This document shows, piece by piece, positions 2,825-35,474 of a stretch of DNA of 36,745 nt. A program made the position numbers and the translations under genes. Each line of letters opens with the position of its first letter. Position 1 is the stretch's first letter. Where the stretch lies: positions 1 through 36,745 of the IMG/VR virus record IMGVR_UViG_3300048839_000775; one strand, written 5' to 3'. The notes beneath the pieces were generated by a model. That model ran no database searches. It was given only the letters and a program-made list of their open reading frames with translations, and was not told where the DNA came from. The DNA is from a virus.

Positions 2825-3223
2825 ATGGACATTTATAAAAAACGATTTTCAGAGATGCTTCGAAAGGCGCTGCATAAGTCTATACTTCAACAAAACGAAC
2901 TTGCAGAAAAAATGAATGTCAAAGCCTCATCCGTTTCTAGGTGGGCATCAGGCCTTGATCTACCAAGTGATAAAAACTTTAAGAAACTTTGCTCAATTCT
3001 ACAAGTAAGGCCAGATTATTTTCTAGGCATAGAGGTAAAAAAAGAAGACACCAAGAATCACAATTCCCTCGTTGGTGCCGCCGAGATACTCGCACAGATT
3101 GCAAGCTTATCACCTTTGATGCGCGAGGTCGTGCTTGCAATTTTATACAAGGATCCCTCCCTGTTGACTGATTCTGACCCTGAGCTCGCTCAATACGTTC
3201 GACTTCTTTCAAAAGTTGAGTAA
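2825..3223 (+). CDS. CI-like XRE-family repressor without peptidase domain
   Basis: A 132-residue protein with an XRE helix-turn-helix at about residues 16-68 (QQNELAEKMNVKASSVSRWA, then a third helix ending in YFLG). The rest is a short helical tail, probably for dimerisation. There is no S24 autocleavage domain, so induction would not follow the LexA/CI self-cleavage route unless a partner exists. It is transcribed away from the Cro-like gene across the operator array and is the most likely lysogeny repressor. The ATG at 2825 is the only good start. Confidence 0.85.
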   Translation: MDIYKKRFSEMLRKALHKSILQQNELAEKMNVKASSVSRWASGLDLPSDKNFKKLCSILQVRPDYFLGIEVKKEDTKNHNSLVGAAEILAQIASLSPLMREVVLAILYKDPSLLTDSDPELAQYVRLLSKVE

Positions 3224-4135: not shown

Positions 4136-4432
4136 ATGCTCAGGGATGTATTTGAGGCCAGAGGCCTCACTAGACGTGAAGTTGAAGTGGCTGAGCTCGT
4201 GAGAAGCGGCCTTTCAAATCGTGAAGTTGCCAATAAGCTTTTTGTGACCGAAAAAACCGTTAAGTATCATGTGACAAACATTTACAAAAAAATAAAAGTT
4301 AAATCCCGATCACAGCTTATTGTGTGGTGTATGCCATATTTGCAAATGATCGAAGAGGAGACCCCACAACCTGAGAAAAGTGCAAGCCATGGCCCCGATT
4401 GGCTACCAGCAGGAAAGCCCGGAAGAGCCTAA
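4136..4432 (+). CDS. Stand-alone LuxR/GerE-type HTH regulator
   Basis: A 98-residue protein that is almost entirely a LuxR-type four-helix DNA-binding domain. It carries LTRREVEVAELVRSGLSNRE, then VANKLFVTEKTVKYHVTNIY and KIKVKSRSQLI, with the conserved TxxEVxV, GLSN and TVKYH elements. No receiver or ligand domain is present. A strong purine-rich ribosome-binding site (AGGGGCAGGG) abuts the ATG. It overlaps the next gene by 44 bp. It may regulate host or phage genes in the lysogen. Target unknown. Confidence 0.88.
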   Translation: MLRDVFEARGLTRREVEVAELVRSGLSNREVANKLFVTEKTVKYHVTNIYKKIKVKSRSQLIVWCMPYLQMIEEETPQPEKSASHGPDWLPAGKPGRA

Positions 4433-19263: not shown

Positions 19264-19303
19264 TTTATTTTCTCCTGTTAAAATTTAAGTTTTTTTAGCA
19301 TGT

Positions 19304-19337
19304 AAAGTGGGCAGCTAATTAAAGCCGCCCACTTTTT
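19304..19337. terminator. Strong hairpin just after the coat gene
   Basis: AAAGTGGGC (19304-19312) and GCCCACTTT (19327-19335) extend inward to about 12-13 pairs around a 6-base loop, 4 bases after the coat stop codon. On the minus strand no T-run follows. The T-run is on the plus-strand side. It may stabilise or process the very abundant coat mRNA, or end rightward antisense transcription. Confidence 0.55.
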
Positions 19338-19339
19338 CT

Positions 19340-21580: not shown

Positions 21581-23773
21581 TTACACTCCCATGTTGTTAC
21601 TCGGTGGTAGCCCGCCGATAGGTTGTTGATCTTGAGGCATTGCAGGGGCTTGTTGCCCACCAAACGCCATATTATTTTCTAAATTTTGTTGTTCTAAAAA
21701 CTGCTCATCTTCGATGGGCTGATCCATGTCGAGATAACTCAAACGATCTTGGAGCTGCGCCATTTGCGCTTCCATTTTCTGCATCGCTTGGATTTGTCCG
21801 ACTTGCGTTTGAAGTAAAAGGGCTGAGTCTTTTTGCTCTAGCTCTGCCATCTTCTTTTGTAGATCAACCTGCATTTTTGAAAACTCGATGCGCTCTCTTG
21901 ACTCAAGCTCTCTGGTTTTTTGGTCTAGCTCATCTTGTGATTTATTTAATTGCTTAGTTAGCTGATCAAGCATCTGCTGCATTTGTTGCATCTGTGCTTG
22001 GACTTCTGGTGGTATTGGTGCTTGATCTTTATTTTCAATAACGCCCGGAGGCGCCACTTTTTTGAGTCGCTCTGCCATTTCATGAGCGCCTGGTATATCT
22101 AAGCTTTTAACCATTAAATCGCCAATGATCGGAAACAAATTAGGATATGACTTTGTAAGGTCCAGCATGGCTGCTGCAGCCTCTTGGCGTTTTGTCGCAA
22201 AGCTTGGGCCTGTCTCAACCGCAATGTCATATTTTCCAACATCCATGCGGTAAGTGACCATTTTGCCCTTGTGCTTAAACTCTTCATTCAGACGAACAAC
22301 TTCCTCTTCACCCTCTTCACCGATGATGCGCCCAACTCTAGGCCCGTCGTAATAGACTGGAATCCAAGCGTTTATAATGACGCCTGTGTGACGAATGGAT
22401 CTGGTCAAGTTATCGATTAAATGAAAGTTAGAAGTTTGTGCTTGAGCATTTCTGCGCTGAATTGCAATGCCTGATGTCTCATTTGATTTCGCGCCTAGAG
22501 CTGCATCGTAAATACCAGTTGTTGATTTTAAATCGTCACTTGCAAGCATACGAGCTTGAGTGATGGCCTGCACAGGAGGCTCATAAGCATTTCTTTGTGG
22601 AGGTGGCACAGCTTGACCATTGATGTCTTTAGCCTTGTACTCAAGGTAAGCATGGCTTTGTGTGTTTGCCGTTGCCCACTTAGACTCATGCCCTTCGAAC
22701 TGCCCCTCAACGCCTATAAATGGCGCACGAGGCGCTAAGGCAATGGTCTCAGTCTCAGAGCTTGCCCAATAGTTATACATGCGCTGTGGATCCATTGCCG
22801 GACGCACAATGCCTGACAGCACACGCTTGCCATTTACATAATACTCATCACCTAAAGTTGGTATGATCGGAATAAACTCGCCCGGAATGTCTGTCTCTTC
22901 TAAGATTTCTTCGCCATTGATTTTGTACCACTTGATTTGTGGCAAAATTGTTTTTCTAACCTGAACAATATCAATGCCAGGTGGAAGCCCGCCAAGCTCT
23001 GCAATCAACTCTTCATACTCTTCTTTTAAAAGAGTCGAGCCATCAGATAATTGATAAAGCTCTTTTTCCTTGAAAGTTTTTTCATAATATTCACAAACTC
23101 GGCACTCTTCTTTATCGACCCAGCCATCCTCATTGCCCTCATGAGCGCCCCAGATGTCATCCTTTGAAAGTTCAGCCTTTGGATATTCGGCTTTGAATTT
23201 TTCCCTCGACATTTTGTCTACAATGAAACCAAAACTTGCGTCTGAGCCATCAGACTCTTGAAAAGAAGGGTCCAGATATGCCGACATAAAATTTGGCACA
23301 CGCTTAATTAAAATCTCTTGGTCGAATGAAACTGGATCACAGTAATCAGTGATAAGACGCCAAAAGCCTATGCCGCCCGTTGCTGCTTGTTCGAAAGCTG
23401 TGTCATAAGCCGCATCTGCATTTGATCTACGCTCAATGTGACGGGCTAAGCCTTGTCTGATTTTAGCCGTTTCAATATCTGCTTGGTCATCGACTGGTGA
23501 AAACTTAAGTGAAGGCCTGTTTTGTCTTTGGTCATTTGTAACTTGCCGAACAGCAGGACCAACTTTGTTAATTGTAAGACTTGGCTTACCGTCTTGATCA
23601 CGTCTGCGCTTAATATCTTCAGGCCACTGATCGCCAGTGCGAAATTTTAAATCTTCTTCAGCAAGTTTGTAGATGTCTCGCCAATAGTTCTCGGCTAATT
23701 GAAAACGCTTTTTGGCCCTCTCAATAACATCATCACTATCAAGTTCAATTTGATCTTCTTTTTCATTGGACAC
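21581..23773 (-). CDS. P22-family portal protein
   Basis: A 730-residue protein, the usual size for P22 gp1. It has RFQLAENYWRDIYKLAEEDL, FRTGDQWPEDIKRRR, PSLTINKVGPAVRQVTNDQR and the PQRMYNYWASSETETIALAP loop, all typical. The C-terminal ~130 residues are Gln-rich coiled coil, as in P22 portals with a barrel. The start is GTG at 23773 without a clear ribosome-binding site, and no in-frame ATG lies nearby. It is first in the structural operon, divergent from the sigma factor across the phased operator array. Confidence 0.9.
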   Translation of the reverse strand: MSNEKEDQIELDSDDVIERAKKRFQLAENYWRDIYKLAEEDLKFRTGDQWPEDIKRRRDQDGKPSLTINKVGPAVRQVTNDQRQNRPSLKFSPVDDQADIETAKIRQGLARHIERRSNADAAYDTAFEQAATGGIGFWRLITDYCDPVSFDQEILIKRVPNFMSAYLDPSFQESDGSDASFGFIVDKMSREKFKAEYPKAELSKDDIWGAHEGNEDGWVDKEECRVCEYYEKTFKEKELYQLSDGSTLLKEEYEELIAELGGLPPGIDIVQVRKTILPQIKWYKINGEEILEETDIPGEFIPIIPTLGDEYYVNGKRVLSGIVRPAMDPQRMYNYWASSETETIALAPRAPFIGVEGQFEGHESKWATANTQSHAYLEYKAKDINGQAVPPPQRNAYEPPVQAITQARMLASDDLKSTTGIYDAALGAKSNETSGIAIQRRNAQAQTSNFHLIDNLTRSIRHTGVIINAWIPVYYDGPRVGRIIGEEGEEEVVRLNEEFKHKGKMVTYRMDVGKYDIAVETGPSFATKRQEAAAAMLDLTKSYPNLFPIIGDLMVKSLDIPGAHEMAERLKKVAPPGVIENKDQAPIPPEVQAQMQQMQQMLDQLTKQLNKSQDELDQKTRELESRERIEFSKMQVDLQKKMAELEQKDSALLLQTQVGQIQAMQKMEAQMAQLQDRLSYLDMDQPIEDEQFLEQQNLENNMAFGGQQAPAMPQDQQPIGGLPPSNNMGV

Positions 23774-23806
23774 ACTGACAGTTTCGACATGATATAATTC
23801 AAATAA

Positions 23807-23846
23807 AACATCTATAAATATCGATTAAAATCTATTTAAGTAGATG
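23807..23846. promoter_or_regulatory. 10-bp-phased ATC(T/G)AT array upstream of portal and sigma factor
   Basis: Half-sites occur at exact 10-bp steps: ATCTAT (23810), ATCGAT (23820), ATCTAT (23830) and an inverted GTAGAT (23840). The block AACATCTAT-N4-ATCGATT (23807-23826) is identical, including the 4-base spacer length, in the RHH/GroES intergenic region at 28594-28613. Same-face 10-bp phasing is typical of tandem RHH-protein operators. It lies midway in the divergent intergenic region and could control both directions. Confidence 0.7.
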
Positions 23847-23906
23847 TTTGCTTTTGACCTAATGGCTAGACCTTAAGCGCGTGTTTTGCTGTTATATGCT
23901 TATAAA

Positions 23907-24395
23907 ATGACAGACGAGCAGGTTCACAGACTAATTGCCGAGCATTACCAATACGTTTTTAGAGTCGTGTATAAATTCGTCAGGCGCAGAGAAGATGCAG
24001 AGGACGTAATGCAAGAGGCTGTCATCTTGGCTATGACAAAACATGACCAGCTAAAAGATGAAAGTAAATTTAGGGCATGGTTTGCCGCACTTGCCGTTAA
24101 TAAAGCCTTAAGCTACTTGTCTCGCTCTAAATGGCTAAAGCATGAAAGAATCGATGAGCTTTTAAAACCGATTTCATACGAAACCAAATTCGAAGATAAT
24201 TTCTTTTACAAAGACGCGCAGATAAAACTAGCAGCTAAAGCTTGCGACCTTCCACCAAGGCAAAGCATGGCGTATGACTTAAGAGTAAATAAGGGTTTAG
24301 ATTTTAAGGAAATAGCTGAGAAAATGGGCTGTGGTTATAACACCGCAAAAACTCATGCGAGGCTTGCGACTATGAAAATCAAAGGCACTCATTAG
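23907..24395 (+). CDS. Phage-encoded ECF-like sigma-70 family factor
   Basis: A 162-residue protein with sigma region 2 (about residues 8-75, including EDAEDVMQEAVILAM and KFRAWFAALAVNKALSYLSR) and sigma region 4 (about 112-158: LPPRQSMAYDLRVNKGLDFK, EIAEKMGCGYNTAKTHARL). This is the two-domain ECF layout. I chose ATG 23907 over a TTG at 23886. It is on the plus strand, alone, between portal and TerL, and its stop is 4 bp from the TerL stop. It probably redirects host RNA polymerase to phage promoters, with late genes the best guess. Confidence 0.87.
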   Translation: MTDEQVHRLIAEHYQYVFRVVYKFVRRREDAEDVMQEAVILAMTKHDQLKDESKFRAWFAALAVNKALSYLSRSKWLKHERIDELLKPISYETKFEDNFFYKDAQIKLAAKACDLPPRQSMAYDLRVNKGLDFKEIAEKMGCGYNTAKTHARLATMKIKGTH

Positions 24396-24399
24396 CCCA

Positions 24400-25905
24400 T
24401 CATCCCATCCAGCCTGTGCCCCCTCGATAAACAGTCGGCGGCTTTGGCTGAGCCTTAACAGCTTTTGGAAACTCAGCGCCTATTAACGGATCTAAAATGC
24501 GAGCCATGCAGTCGAGCATATCGTCATGTACACACACTGGAAATGCCAAATACTCATCGTTTACGAACGAGTGGATGTAATCAACAGACCTGCCCTCGTA
24601 GTCTACAAACATTAGTCTTTCAGGAAGCCACATTCTTTTTTGCTCAAAGATAGGCACGAGTCTTTTTATTCGGTCCTCTTTGGCTAATGCCCCACCGACA
24701 GGAGTAATATCAAAGCGGTAGTTTTTTTCTTCCATTACATACTTAATATGCTCAATGTCTGAGTCTTTGCCGTATTTCTCATAGGCGGTTTTTATGGGCT
24801 TATATTTTCTATGAAAGTAAAAAAGCTTTTCCGTTCGCTCTGTTAAATTCATTCTGTCTCTTACGCCATCAACAAAATAATAATTATTATCAGGCCCTAG
24901 TCCTATGACTTTCATCACTGTGTAATCAGACGTGGATTTCTTCTCACTCGCTGGATCAATCAGCAAATACAAATTCAAATCTTCTGATTTCAAGGCACTT
25001 TTGTAATAACATAACCACTCAGGCTTGAATCCCATTGATTTATCTGCAACGGGATCTAAGAGCATTTGTGCGCCGAATGTGTAAGGCCCTTGATCTCTTC
25101 GTTTTTCTATCAAAAGCTCATCACTCATAAACACAGGTCGGCCATCCATCTTGCCGCCCTCTCTTGCTGGCTTAATACGAGCCTTTACTGAGCCTCGATC
25201 CATCATGGTTTTATATGTATCGTTTGCGTGATAGCGCGTGCCGATGTAGCGTTTCTTCCCGCCTTGGGCACCGAGGTTAGTTGATAGCTCCCATGCCGCT
25301 GTGGTTTTTTTAATTTGCTCAGGTGTGCTTACAGACTCACGAGTCACAACGTCATCATACACCATTAAGCCAAAGTGTTTTGAGGTCGGTTGGCCATCGA
25401 CAAGCCCCCACGCTTCAATCGTTGATTCTTTTGGGTTTTGATCACGCTTAACAATGATGCCACTATCTAAAGACCACTTAGGCGCTTGAGATTTTGGCTC
25501 TGCCCAAAGCACATCGGGAAATAGATTTTTCAAAAAAGTATTCTGCTCAAGTTCTTGTTTGATTTGACTCAAGAAAGCTTTAGCTATTGGCCTTGTGTGC
25601 GAGAAAATTCCAACCGTTAAATTGGGATCGTTTAAAATGTCTTTTATTGTGAGAGCAAAAGTTATCGTTGAGCTTTTGAAATGTTCACGTGCCCATAAAT
25701 CTAAATAGCCGTCTGGCTCAGACTCGACCTCTCTACAATTGCCGTAGATCCAGTCATGGTCAGCGTCTTTTCTTTTACACCCAACAGTAAGTAAAAAAAA
25801 TAAATCTTCTTTGGCTAAACGCCTAAGAGCTTTATTGTCTTTAGACTCAAGCACTTCAAGGTAAAGGTCATTGGCTTGTTTGCGGGTTAGGCCGTGGCAG
25901 ATCAT
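24400..25905 (-). CDS. terL: Terminase large subunit
   Basis: A 501-residue packaging motor. It has a divergent Walker A-like loop WAREHFKSST (about 71-80) in place of the usual GKT form, and Walker B MVYDDVV (181-187). A C-terminal RNase H-type nuclease carries Asp317 in LLIDPAS, a DYTV segment and HDDMLD near the end. The unusual P-loop is known from several terminase clades. It follows two small genes and TerS and precedes the portal after the sigma factor. Confidence 0.9.
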   Translation of the reverse strand: MICHGLTRKQANDLYLEVLESKDNKALRRLAKEDLFFLLTVGCKRKDADHDWIYGNCREVESEPDGYLDLWAREHFKSSTITFALTIKDILNDPNLTVGIFSHTRPIAKAFLSQIKQELEQNTFLKNLFPDVLWAEPKSQAPKWSLDSGIIVKRDQNPKESTIEAWGLVDGQPTSKHFGLMVYDDVVTRESVSTPEQIKKTTAAWELSTNLGAQGGKKRYIGTRYHANDTYKTMMDRGSVKARIKPAREGGKMDGRPVFMSDELLIEKRRDQGPYTFGAQMLLDPVADKSMGFKPEWLCYYKSALKSEDLNLYLLIDPASEKKSTSDYTVMKVIGLGPDNNYYFVDGVRDRMNLTERTEKLFYFHRKYKPIKTAYEKYGKDSDIEHIKYVMEEKNYRFDITPVGGALAKEDRIKRLVPIFEQKRMWLPERLMFVDYEGRSVDYIHSFVNDEYLAFPVCVHDDMLDCMARILDPLIGAEFPKAVKAQPKPPTVYRGGTGWMG

Positions 25906-26373: not shown

Positions 26374-26779
26374 CCTTTATCTGTTTAATCCTATCCTCTA
26401 AATCCACTGGCTCAATCGTCACATTTTGGTTTACATTATTTTGCACGTTTACTTGGACACCTGCGCCCTTATCACTCCACCCGTCAAAATGATTTAAGCA
26501 TTTAATTAGCATCGTTGTGTCGCCCTCTTGCGCCATCTTTATAGCCTTTTGTCTTAAGCTAAGCCTAACGCCCGCCATGTGATACTCTTTAAATTCATTG
26601 TAAGTTAGCCCTGTTGTCTCTTTTATCCTGCGCTCTATCGTGTCAACTGAACATCCCATCTGTGCCGCGGCATCTTCTCGCTTTGGATCAAGACGCATTA
26701 AACTAGCAAGCTTCTCCATGTCTATTTCAATAATTGATCCAAGAGGTCTGCCCATTTTTGGCTTGGCTTCTTCACTCAA
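26354..26779 (-). CDS. terS: Terminase small subunit-like DNA-binding protein
   Basis: A 141-residue protein. An N-terminal GRPLGS segment leads to a helix-turn-helix (EKLASLMRLDPKREDAAAQM, GCSVDTIERRIKE). The middle is a helical oligomerisation region with LRQKAIKMAQEGDTTMLIKC and NHFDGWSDK, a pattern shared with many TerS proteins (KAxxGDxxMLKxxLxxxxGW). It recognises the packaging start site in the phage genome. It overlaps the methyltransferase stop by ATGA. Confidence 0.75.
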   Translation of the reverse strand: MSEEAKPKMGRPLGSIIEIDMEKLASLMRLDPKREDAAAQMGCSVDTIERRIKETTGLTYNEFKEYHMAGVRLSLRQKAIKMAQEGDTTMLIKCLNHFDGWSDKGAGVQVNVQNNVNQNVTIEPVDLEDRIKQIKGESGEK

Positions 26780-27744
26780 AAGCCGCCCCCAACTGCAGCA
26801 GCATTTCCGTAAACTTTTTCTACAACAGCAATATTTTTGTCACCACCGCTTGAAAATGTTGATCTGTGGTTTATTTTTTTAATCAAATGAAGGCGCTGGT
26901 CTTTAATGTCATACTCAGAAATAAAAACTGGATTAGCTTGCTCATGCGCCCAATCGAAAAAGTCTTTGTGGCTAAACGTGTTGCCATAATCGGCAGTCCC
27001 TTGATATGGAATGTCGCAGTAGATTACTGAGTTTGGCTTTATTATTACCTTCCTATAATCTAAGTTTGTTAACTCCAACCGCTCCAACTGCTGCAACTGC
27101 TCCAACTGCTGCAACCGCTCCAACCGCTCCAACTGCTGCAACTGCTCCAACTGCTGCAACCGCTCCAACCGCTGCAACTGCTCCAACTGCTCCAACTGCT
27201 GCAACCGCTCCAACCGCTGCAAGTCAACTCGCTGGCCCATCTTGTGTCGCAGAATAGTTTTTAAAAACAATCTACGCGCTTTTATGCCAAGGCCCATCGG
27301 CCATTTCTTAATTCCAAACGTATCAATAAACCAAGAATCAAACTCATCAAACACAACGGCCATGTGCATGCTGCGCTTTTGTTCTTCTAAGTCTTTTCCA
27401 AATAAATAACCTTCTCCATTATTACCAAATGACCAAATGATTTTTATGTAAGCGCTTGTTTCTTTTTCTGCAAAAAAACGATCACGAGAAATCCAATCAG
27501 GTTTAAATACTTTGTAGTTATATTTGCCAGCAATAGCATCACTGATTAGCTCACACATTCCTGCTCTTATCTCATTGTAATGAAAATGCTTAAAAGATTT
27601 ACGCCTATTTACAAGCATGTAATGAGTAGCAGAAAACCCGCCGCCAAATAAATCATAAAAGTGATCAGCTCTTGGAAAGAGCTTTGCTATTTCTCCTATT
27701 ATGTTGGTCTTAGATCCCTGATAAGGTAGTCCGTACTCAGCCAC
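26776..27744 (-). CDS. D12-class N6-adenine DNA methyltransferase with an LQx repeat tract
   Basis: A 322-residue Dam-type enzyme. It has PYQGSK (7-12, the FxGxK-type SAM motif), DLFGGGFSA (31-39) and a catalytic CDIPYQGT (about 242-249) in place of the standard DPPY. The IPY form is seen in related phage enzymes. Residues ~174-225 are 17 tandem three-residue units L-[QE]-[RQ], placed between the target-recognition part and motif IV. It follows the ParB-like gene. Probably modifies phage DNA against restriction or to regulate packaging. Activity untested. Confidence 0.85.
   Translation of the reverse strand: MAEYGLPYQGSKTNIIGEIAKLFPRADHFYDLFGGGFSATHYMLVNRRKSFKHFHYNEIRAGMCELISDAIAGKYNYKVFKPDWISRDRFFAEKETSAYIKIIWSFGNNGEGYLFGKDLEEQKRSMHMAVVFDEFDSWFIDTFGIKKWPMGLGIKARRLFLKTILRHKMGQRVDLQRLERLQQLEQLEQLQRLERLQQLEQLQQLERLERLQQLEQLQQLERLELTNLDYRKVIIKPNSVIYCDIPYQGTADYGNTFSHKDFFDWAHEQANPVFISEYDIKDQRLHLIKKINHRSTFSSGGDKNIAVVEKVYGNAAAVGGGF
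27072..27224 (-). repeat. 9-bp tandem repeat inside the methyltransferase
   Basis: About 17 copies of a 9-bp unit (plus strand CAACYGCTS-like, for example CAACTGCTG and CAACCGCTC) encode L-[QE]-[RQ]. Units vary at fixed third positions and form longer super-repeats. Whole-unit gain or loss would keep the frame. It resembles length-variable tracts in phage methyltransferases. Confidence 0.92.
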
Positions 27745-28658: not shown

Positions 28659-28961
28659 ATGGAAACAAAAATCAGACCAATTTTAGATCGCATTTTAGTT
28701 GAGCCCATCGAAGAGCCTGATGTCACCAAAGGCGGCATCATCATGGTAAAGCATGAAAAAGAAAAGCCAAACGAAGGCTTAGTGCTTGCTGTTGGTGAAG
28801 GTCGCTACGACGTACAAGTCCAGCGCATCATCCCGCTTGTAATTAAGCCAGGCGACAGAGTCCTGTATGATGGCAAATACAAGGGTACTCCGATTGAGTG
28901 GGAAGGTAAAACTCTGCTTGTAATGAAACAAGAGGATCTGTTGGGCGTAAGAGAGCCGTGA
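28659..28961 (+). CDS. groES: Phage-encoded GroES-like co-chaperonin
   Basis: A 100-residue protein matching GroES along its whole length: KIRPILDRILVEP, mobile loop EPDVTKGGIIMVKHEKEK (19-36; KGGIIM in place of the usual AGGIVL-type core), then GLVLAVGEGR, PLVIKPGDRVLY and a C-terminal EDLLGV strand. It would cap host GroEL. Cell copies normally sit next to groEL, but none is here. It is a single rightward gene divergent from the RHH regulator. It probably helps fold the P22-type coat protein late in infection. No strong ribosome-binding site precedes ATG 28659. Confidence 0.9.
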   Translation: METKIRPILDRILVEPIEEPDVTKGGIIMVKHEKEKPNEGLVLAVGEGRYDVQVQRIIPLVIKPGDRVLYDGKYKGTPIEWEGKTLLVMKQEDLLGVREP

Positions 28962-34358: not shown

Positions 34359-35474
34359 TCACTCTCTACTTCTTTTTACATCAACGTCGAAGCTCACTGA
34401 CTCACCGAAACCTTTTAGCCTGTTGCCTGAAAGCTCCGAATAAATGTCTGTAGTCGTGCTTGATGCGTGACCAAGTATAGCCTGAAGCGCTTTAATATTG
34501 CCCGTATTAAGCGCAAACTCTCGACCATAGGTGTGACGTAGGGCATGAGGATGTGTGTCGATTTTAGACGCCTTGGCGATGTTATTAACGACCTCCCAAA
34601 TCTCACGCGGTCCATAGAATTTACCCGAAGGCTTTGTAAACACAAAATCACTCGGCGCGTTAAACTTAGTGGCCTTTTTATGTGCCGCCAATATCGAAAT
34701 TAAATTTTCTGGAACAGGAACATCTCTTGTCGCATAAACTCCACGCTTGGTGCCACCCTCAACGCTGTTTGATGCCTGAACATATCTTTGTGATATATGA
34801 AACTGTCTGGTCTTAAAATTAACAGACGACCACTTTAGCGCGATAAGCTCCTGTTTTCTGAGCCCCGACATTAAAAACACACAGGCCACAGTAAAATGAA
34901 AACTATCAATTTTTTTTGCCGTTTCAATAAATCGTAGGCATTCATCAGAATCAGCCAAAACCTTTGGCCTTTTTGTGCCCATGCGCTGCTCTTTTATTTT
35001 AAGCCCAAGGACAGGATTAAATTTTACCAGTGGCGGCTGTTCGTTTAATGCATCGCTGAAAATTACCGAAAGCAATGCTTTAACTCTTGTTCTGGTTGAG
35101 TTGGATATTCTAAAGTTTGGTTTTAAAAAACCATCCTCTGATATTTTTAATAGAAAATATCTAATCTGTGCACCAGTAATTTCTGACAATGGCAACTCTG
35201 ACATTATTGGCAATATGTAGTCCCTTAACCGCTGCTCATCAGAATTCCAAGTTGCTGGGCCGTAATCTTTCATTCTCTTTTTGATCCAGACGCTGGCCCA
35301 TTCTATGAACTTAATCCCATCGCCATCATCATGCATAATAGTGCCGTCACGAAGAAATTGTTTTTTTCTTCGCATCTGATGGTACCACTCTTCTGCATCT
35401 GATCTTTTTGTAAATCTAGGCGATGAATATAACTCACCGCCGACTCGTATGAATCGACGATAAATCTTGCTCAT
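34359..35474 (-). CDS. int: Tyrosine-family phage integrase
   Basis: A 371-residue integrase with all catalytic elements visible: Arg206 in SGLRKQELIALKW, HALRH (His310, Arg313, His314), GHASSTTT (His336) and the nucleophile Tyr345 in TDIYS. The N-terminal arm-binding and SAM-like core domain cover residues 1-165. It starts at ATG 35474, overlapping the HTH gene stop (ATGA). It lies next to the attP core, whose crossover would fall in the anticodon stem-loop. Confidence 0.95.
   Translation of the reverse strand: MSKIYRRFIRVGGELYSSPRFTKRSDAEEWYHQMRRKKQFLRDGTIMHDDGDGIKFIEWASVWIKKRMKDYGPATWNSDEQRLRDYILPIMSELPLSEITGAQIRYFLLKISEDGFLKPNFRISNSTRTRVKALLSVIFSDALNEQPPLVKFNPVLGLKIKEQRMGTKRPKVLADSDECLRFIETAKKIDSFHFTVACVFLMSGLRKQELIALKWSSVNFKTRQFHISQRYVQASNSVEGGTKRGVYATRDVPVPENLISILAAHKKATKFNAPSDFVFTKPSGKFYGPREIWEVVNNIAKASKIDTHPHALRHTYGREFALNTGNIKALQAILGHASSTTTDIYSELSGNRLKGFGESVSFDVDVKRSRE

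Follow-up and report, generated by a model that had tools for sequence, protein, structure and literature searches.

A predicted ECF-type sigma factor as probable accessory cargo between the terminase and portal genes of a P22-portal phage

A short gene between the terminase large subunit (TerL) and portal genes of the viral record IMGVR_UViG_3300048839_000775 is confirmed, by comparison with sigma factor families, as a real and intact ECF-type (group IV) sigma-70 factor with predicted activity. The whole stretch of 36,745 nucleotides that was analysed is referred to here as the window. The best explanation of the gene, which we consider probable, is that of an accessory (moron-like) cargo in the slot between TerL and portal, whose product would steer the host RNA polymerase to promoters of the host or to non-late promoters of the prophage.

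The reading frame extends from an ATG at 23907 to a TAG at 24393-24395, and an alternative start (TTG at 23886) would make the product 7 residues longer. The protein matches the Pfam families Sigma70_r2 (E 3.7e-13, 49.5 bits, cut-off 24) and Sigma70_r4_2 (9.1e-9, 35.3 bits, cut-off 25.7), and the NCBIfam model sigma70-ECF TIGR02937 covers almost its entire length (77.4 bits, cut-off 42.9). It also matches PHROG 1740, "RNA polymerase sigma factor" (4.5e-18), and its sequence retrieves sigma factor chains from the PDB (best E 7e-8; sigma-E 1.2e-7). On the sequence level these family matches are far above chance, and they bear out the preliminary description of an ECF-like sigma factor with regions 2 and 4. 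The presence of regions 2 and 4 only, in a protein within the range of ~150-200 aa, is as expected for ECF (group IV) factors. An AlphaFold single-sequence model is of mediocre to poor quality (pLDDT 62); the top Foldseek match of this model is E. coli sigma-E (1or7, E 0.011), and its region 2 superposes on SigR (1h3l) with a TM-score by target of 0.75 and an rmsd of 1.6. An anti-sigma gene adjacent to an ECF sigma gene is typical but not required. Here none lies next to the sigma gene, which has no neighbour on the same strand and whose downstream neighbour, TerL, is encoded on the opposite strand.

The window is a virus record with mostly leftward genes and probably represents a near-complete temperate phage of ~36.5 kb (Table 1). 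The phage is regarded as temperate because it carries a tyrosine integrase. Further genes encode a P22-type coat protein, the head closure protein Hc3, a scaffold protein, Sak4, and a RecE-like recombination function. The contig ends (1-200 and 36539-36738) are direct repeats with 89% identity over 200 nt. Probably, the genome is circular or permuted with a length of ~36.5 kb and was closed with two strain variants, or the duplication is real. As described previously, the sigma gene lies between TerL and portal on the opposite strand; it is oriented tail to tail with TerL, and the stop codons are 4 nt apart. The description of it as alone on the plus strand of the leftward block is correct for the TerL-portal part, but farther up the phage GroES gene is a second single gene on this strand. 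Two repeat structures were observed elsewhere in the window. The gene of a D12 DNA methyltransferase (MTase, 26776-27744, minus strand) contains a 150-nt array (27073-27222) of 16.7 nine-base units that encodes a Gln/Leu/Glu/Arg repeat, and the homologue in the related contig L003 has a similar repeat of different length. Between the coat gene and the next gene lies a G+C-rich hairpin (19264-19339), which is conserved in L003 and likely is a terminator or processing site.

Table 1. Positions of the sigma gene, selected phage genes, and candidate expression signals in the window.
Feature	Position	Strand	Evidence or remarks
ECF-type (group IV) sigma-70 factor, predicted	23907..24395	+	162 aa; region 2 aa 9-76, region 4 aa 115-154
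P22-type portal protein	21581..23773	-	Pfam, E 2.1e-183
Terminase large subunit TerL	24400..25905	-	PHROG 38, 4.3e-60
Phage GroES (Cpn10)	28659..28961	+	Pfam; second plus-strand single gene; 88% in L003
Tyrosine integrase	34359..35474	-	Temperate marker
HTH repressor (Cro/CI type)	2825..3223	+	
LuxR-type (GerE) HTH protein	4136..4432	+	98 aa; without receiver or sensor domain
Candidate extended -10 (TGATATAAT) for the sigma gene	23790..23798	+	Without matching -35; leader ~100 nt
Imperfect AT-rich inverted repeat	23801..23854		26-nt arms, 73% complementary; downstream of the extended -10

Comparison with related phages illuminated the context of the sigma gene. The closest relative, L003, has portal, coat, and TerL proteins with 82%, 86%, and 69% identity, respectively, and GroES (88%) is among the genes best conserved between the two phages. 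Both share the gene order GroES, Arc-like, ParB, MTase, TerS, small gene, TerL, portal, scaffold, and coat, with identities of 46-88% in the block GroES-ParB-MTase-TerS-TerL-portal-scaffold-coat. In L003, 84 nt separate the TerL stop from the portal start, and this gap contains no sigma gene. Homologous TerL-portal junctions were found in 19 other contigs, counting those with forward-strand hits, a TerL match reaching at least residue 460, and a portal match beginning at residue 60 or earlier; duplicates were counted once (L101, L199, and L208 represent L003, and L213 represents L023). Sixteen of the 19 junctions are empty, defined as a gap not exceeding 108 nt, measured to the start codons, without a frame of 60 aa. 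The remaining three contain other cargo, and a sigma gene is found in none (0/19). The cargo of L023 comprises two opposite-strand frames, of which one has a Phage_ABA_S domain (E 7.5e-14), whereas L103 and L107 encode an identical HTH-like protein of 108 aa with a weak, below Pfam cut-off match to Fis-type HTH domains. TIGR02937 was also searched in 95 other records, the remaining fetched loci being compared only with P0001 by tblastn. Besides the window, one record scored above the cut-off, namely the L002 contig, which had itself been fetched by the sigma protein. With this record set aside, none of the 94 related-phage records has a match to this model above the cut-off, whereas all of the 14 control genomes were positive. 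Judged from these contigs, the TerL-portal junction is a slot for cargo. The late block appears to function without the sigma factor in the relatives, because neither L003 nor the other junctions contain one. A chimeric 0.6-kb insert caused by the assembly was considered and is unlikely, as the flanking TerL and portal are both homologous to the same relative. Some other contigs show irregularities of their own. In L034 (4661-6901) the TerL homology is split (residues 2-227, then 129-501, with ~430 nt between them), which reflects an insertion or a duplication. L202 and L204 belong to one 82.5-kb IMG/VR contig with two head-closure matches ~38 kb apart, a candidate for two joined phages or a tandem prophage.

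The preliminary description had proposed a different logic of late gene expression as one possible meaning of the sigma gene. P22 itself uses an antiterminator for its late genes, and a PHROG comparison covering 29 proteins of the window revealed no homologue of a known antiterminator. This would suit a recently acquired middle or late sigma factor that drives the phage's own late genes, a reading that we rate as possible but rather unlikely. Precedents exist. The podophages phiEco32 and 7-11 encode sigma factors (gp36 and gp47, respectively), which according to the available sections of PMC8948821 drive their own middle or late genes, and eight 7-11 promoters are described there. The sigma factors of phiEco32, 7-11, and the related phage Privateer have affinity to the ECF group; that of Privateer was called ECF by its authors, and the available part of that report names no anti-sigma candidate (PMC7881722), a trait shared with the window phage. 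However, the phiEco32 and 7-11 factors are common to their phage group and act at middle or late promoters, whereas the sigma gene of the window is absent from close relatives (0/19 junctions, 0/94 records). In further contrast to these systems, it belongs to a temperate phage and is oriented opposite to the late operon, and their promoter elements are not in excess in the window. The same late block exists in L003 without the gene, and late transcription in the window would run antisense to it. A role in late expression is thus disfavored. In motif searches of low power, no shared promoter motif exceeded chance. A counterargument against the accessory reading is that the phage could have recruited the factor for late use although its relatives manage without it.

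The motif searches were all underpowered. In the window, the ECF-like pattern GAAC-N15-19-CGT has 6 matches against 11.3 expected, and TTGAC..TATNNT has none against 1.7 expected. The phiEco32 element AATGTATA (2 matches, 1.1 expected) and the 7-11 element GTAA-N19-CTA (2 matches, 3.0 expected) occur at chance level. A de novo two-box search in 14 upstream regions found its best pattern in 5 regions, with shuffled sequences reaching up to 7, and a single-block search in nine non-coding gaps yielded only TTTATTT (6 gaps; 3-5 in shuffles) and other AT tracts. The regions upstream of 23773, 28278, and 20581, where the preliminary description had suggested looking, and those upstream of other genes share no conspicuous motif. 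Such a test has little power, since sequence-based prediction failed for the late promoters of 7-11, which needed mapping (PMC8948821).

The sigma and portal genes start 133 nt apart, and the gap between them has a G+C content of 29%. The pattern of the candidate extended -10 matches twice in the whole window (1.35 expected from shuffles), and one of these matches lies in the gap and points toward the sigma gene. The predicted folding of the inverted repeat has a z of -2.0 on the plus strand and -1.0 on the minus strand. This repeat may act as an operator, form an RNA hairpin, or serve as a weak terminator in both directions. Alternatively, it may be part of the old late operon and not of the sigma gene, because L003 and L102 also have small inverted repeats, judged by eye, between TerL and portal. 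The promoter and repeat features in front of the sigma gene are hints only. An operator region shared with portal had been postulated earlier; this amounts to the adjacency of the two starts. Portal may even lack a promoter of its own, since it directly follows TerL in the relatives. Short sequences on both sides of the sigma gene, at 23863-23873 (GGCTAGACCTT, as in L100) and 24393-24399 (TTAGCCC), resemble the inverted TerL end of relatives; these perhaps bear on the insertion of the gene, or may be due to chance.

In the accessory reading, the sigma gene would be transcribed rightward from its own promoter, for which the extended -10 at 23790 is a candidate, while the late block is off, presumably in the lysogen or in early infection. 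Late transcription, which would run leftward across TerL and portal, would produce RNA antisense to the sigma gene and could thereby silence it. The factor would bind the host core RNA polymerase and guide it to a limited number of host promoters, perhaps also to its own promoter and to other non-late promoters of the prophage, thereby changing the state of the host rather than virion production. The earlier suggestion of a factor that acts from the prophage on host genes is compatible with an accessory gene here, the phage being temperate (integrase and repressor), and in this conditional form it can be retained. As in morons, the gene occupies a site that close relatives leave empty. The full signature is missing: there is no Shine-Dalgarno sequence upstream of the ATG at 23907, no consensus -35 in the gap, and no terminator of its own near 24395. 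A deviant base composition is also lacking, as the G+C content of the gene (40.9%; window, 43.2%) and its GC3 (42%; 38-46% in six other genes) give it a coding character like that of its neighbors. Sigma factors with comparable logic are known from Bacillus and, together with the late sigma factors of phiEco32 and 7-11, are the nearest precedents. Those of the B. anthracis prophages Bcp1 and Wip4 (Schuch and Fischetti, 2009) act on host sporulation and biofilm formation without other phage genes, according to the accessible text of PMC2716549, and the role proposed here would follow the same logic. Sporulation-like phage sigma factors are described as non-essential in lytic infection (PMC9429907, excerpt). 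Whereas the Bcp1 and Wip4 factors resemble the sporulation factors sigma F and G of Bacillota, the window encodes a predicted ECF factor in a P22-portal phage with a probably Gram-negative host. SigN (ZpdN) of the B. subtilis plasmid pBS32 is another ECF-like sigma factor on a mobile element. The passages available from PMC6751061 characterize it as weakly ECF-like and LexA-controlled, with host-sigma promoters in addition to self-activation; its regulon mostly excludes the structural genes of the prophage. In contrast to this plasmid-borne, LexA-controlled factor, the sigma factor of the window is phage-borne.

The host is probably a member of the Bdellovibrionota or a relative of Bdellovibrio. 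The best genome match of TerL (65% over the full length) is on a contig of Bdellovibrionaceae bacterium UBA6502, a Pseudobdellovibrionaceae MAG, and this contig shares more phage genes (eight) than any other genome contig. For the LuxR-type HTH protein, the best plasmid match listed (first of 811) is on pBdHM1 of Bdellovibrio sp. HM001 (48%, E 1e-18), and a protein of the Manatee Spring phage is closer (57%). Counter to such a host, six phage genes also occur, with lower identity, on Castellaniella contig L138, and TerL has many matches in Desulfovibrio. In the host search, G000 was without kinship, and P0002 had no match at E 1e-15 in 150 genomes of another phylum, a result that is uninformative on the host. 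A host in the Bacteroidota, where Shine-Dalgarno sites are rarely used, was considered as well; it is unlikely because Shine-Dalgarno-like tetramers precede 23 of the 52 gene starts and thus exceed the background of 15%, in a count with two mis-set starts, those of GroES and scaffold.

With a host of this kind, the phage factor might mimic an RpoE-like factor of the Bd0743 or Bd0881 type and seize its regulon, for example the chaperonin genes, alongside the phage GroES. The available sections of PMC3464611 present Bd0743 and Bd0881 as group IV sigma factors without a recognized anti-sigma partner, as in the window; Bd0881 has the same length of 162 aa and affects predation, and Bd0743 affects groES1EL and groES2. 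The host hints from TerL and the LuxR-type HTH protein would also agree with mimicry, but the Bdellovibrio-like host is one that we infer. Both Bdellovibrio factors are chromosomal, and differences were found in the residues that contact the promoter. The 12 contact positions of E. coli RpoE (Table 1 of PMC3464611), transferred by sequence alignment and extended without gaps for the last three, are occupied in the phage protein by R, F, K, G, N, T, K, T, H, R, L, and T. In a hand count, two of these agree with E. coli RpoE and four each with Bd0743 and Bd0881, so that the phage factor differs from each of the latter at eight positions. Because of these differences in the predicted -35 reading residues, the factor likely reads a promoter set of its own. 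Since, in addition, L003 has GroES without the sigma gene, a simple mimic of a Bdellovibrio RpoE-like factor is unlikely, and we give mimicry little credence overall. A variant of the accessory reading would be that, in a Bdellovibrio-like predator, the ECF factor, GroES, and the LuxR-type regulator together reset the attack and growth programme in lysogens, using promoters that the RpoE-like factors of the host do not read. This is speculative, and we hold it to be doubtful. The listings of open-licence PMC literature that were examined contained no report of a Bdellovibrio phage sigma factor.

The protein has only distant matches in the sequences searched. Five records in a phage collection of 50,697 match it, all below 60% identity (25-29% among the matches listed). 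Viral contigs gave one match (26%), and 50 plasmid records matched with at best ~31%. In 12 of 22 genomes, matches at E <=1e-5 were found (best E 2.8e-14 at 30%), with 30-31% for the best full-length and up to 37% for short partial alignments. Thus, none of these searches in phages, viral contigs, plasmids, and the 22 genomes revealed a homologue above ~31% over the full length. An unused recent passenger, captured by chance, would agree with this lack of relatives, with the occurrence in one phage only and with the missing Shine-Dalgarno sequence, but is very improbable given a frame intact over both domains with the signatures of regions 2 and 4 kept, a neighbor-like G+C and codon-position make-up, and a candidate extended -10 that points at the gene.

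As predicted here, the combination is that of an ECF factor as optional cargo in a temperate P22-portal phage, which joins two known themes. The TerL-portal junction as a cargo site holds opposite-strand genes in two lineages, the window phage and L023, and in the annotation of podophages such cargo genes may be misread as late regulators. If the host belongs to the Bdellovibrionota, the finding would be notable in that RpoE-like factors of Bdellovibrio influence both groE expression and predation and the phage has a GroES of its own. If the sigma factor acts on its host, bacterial gene programmes could be manipulated through one gene of this phage. With a Bdellovibrio-like host, this would also allow a direct examination of how a virus could alter the life cycle of a predator.
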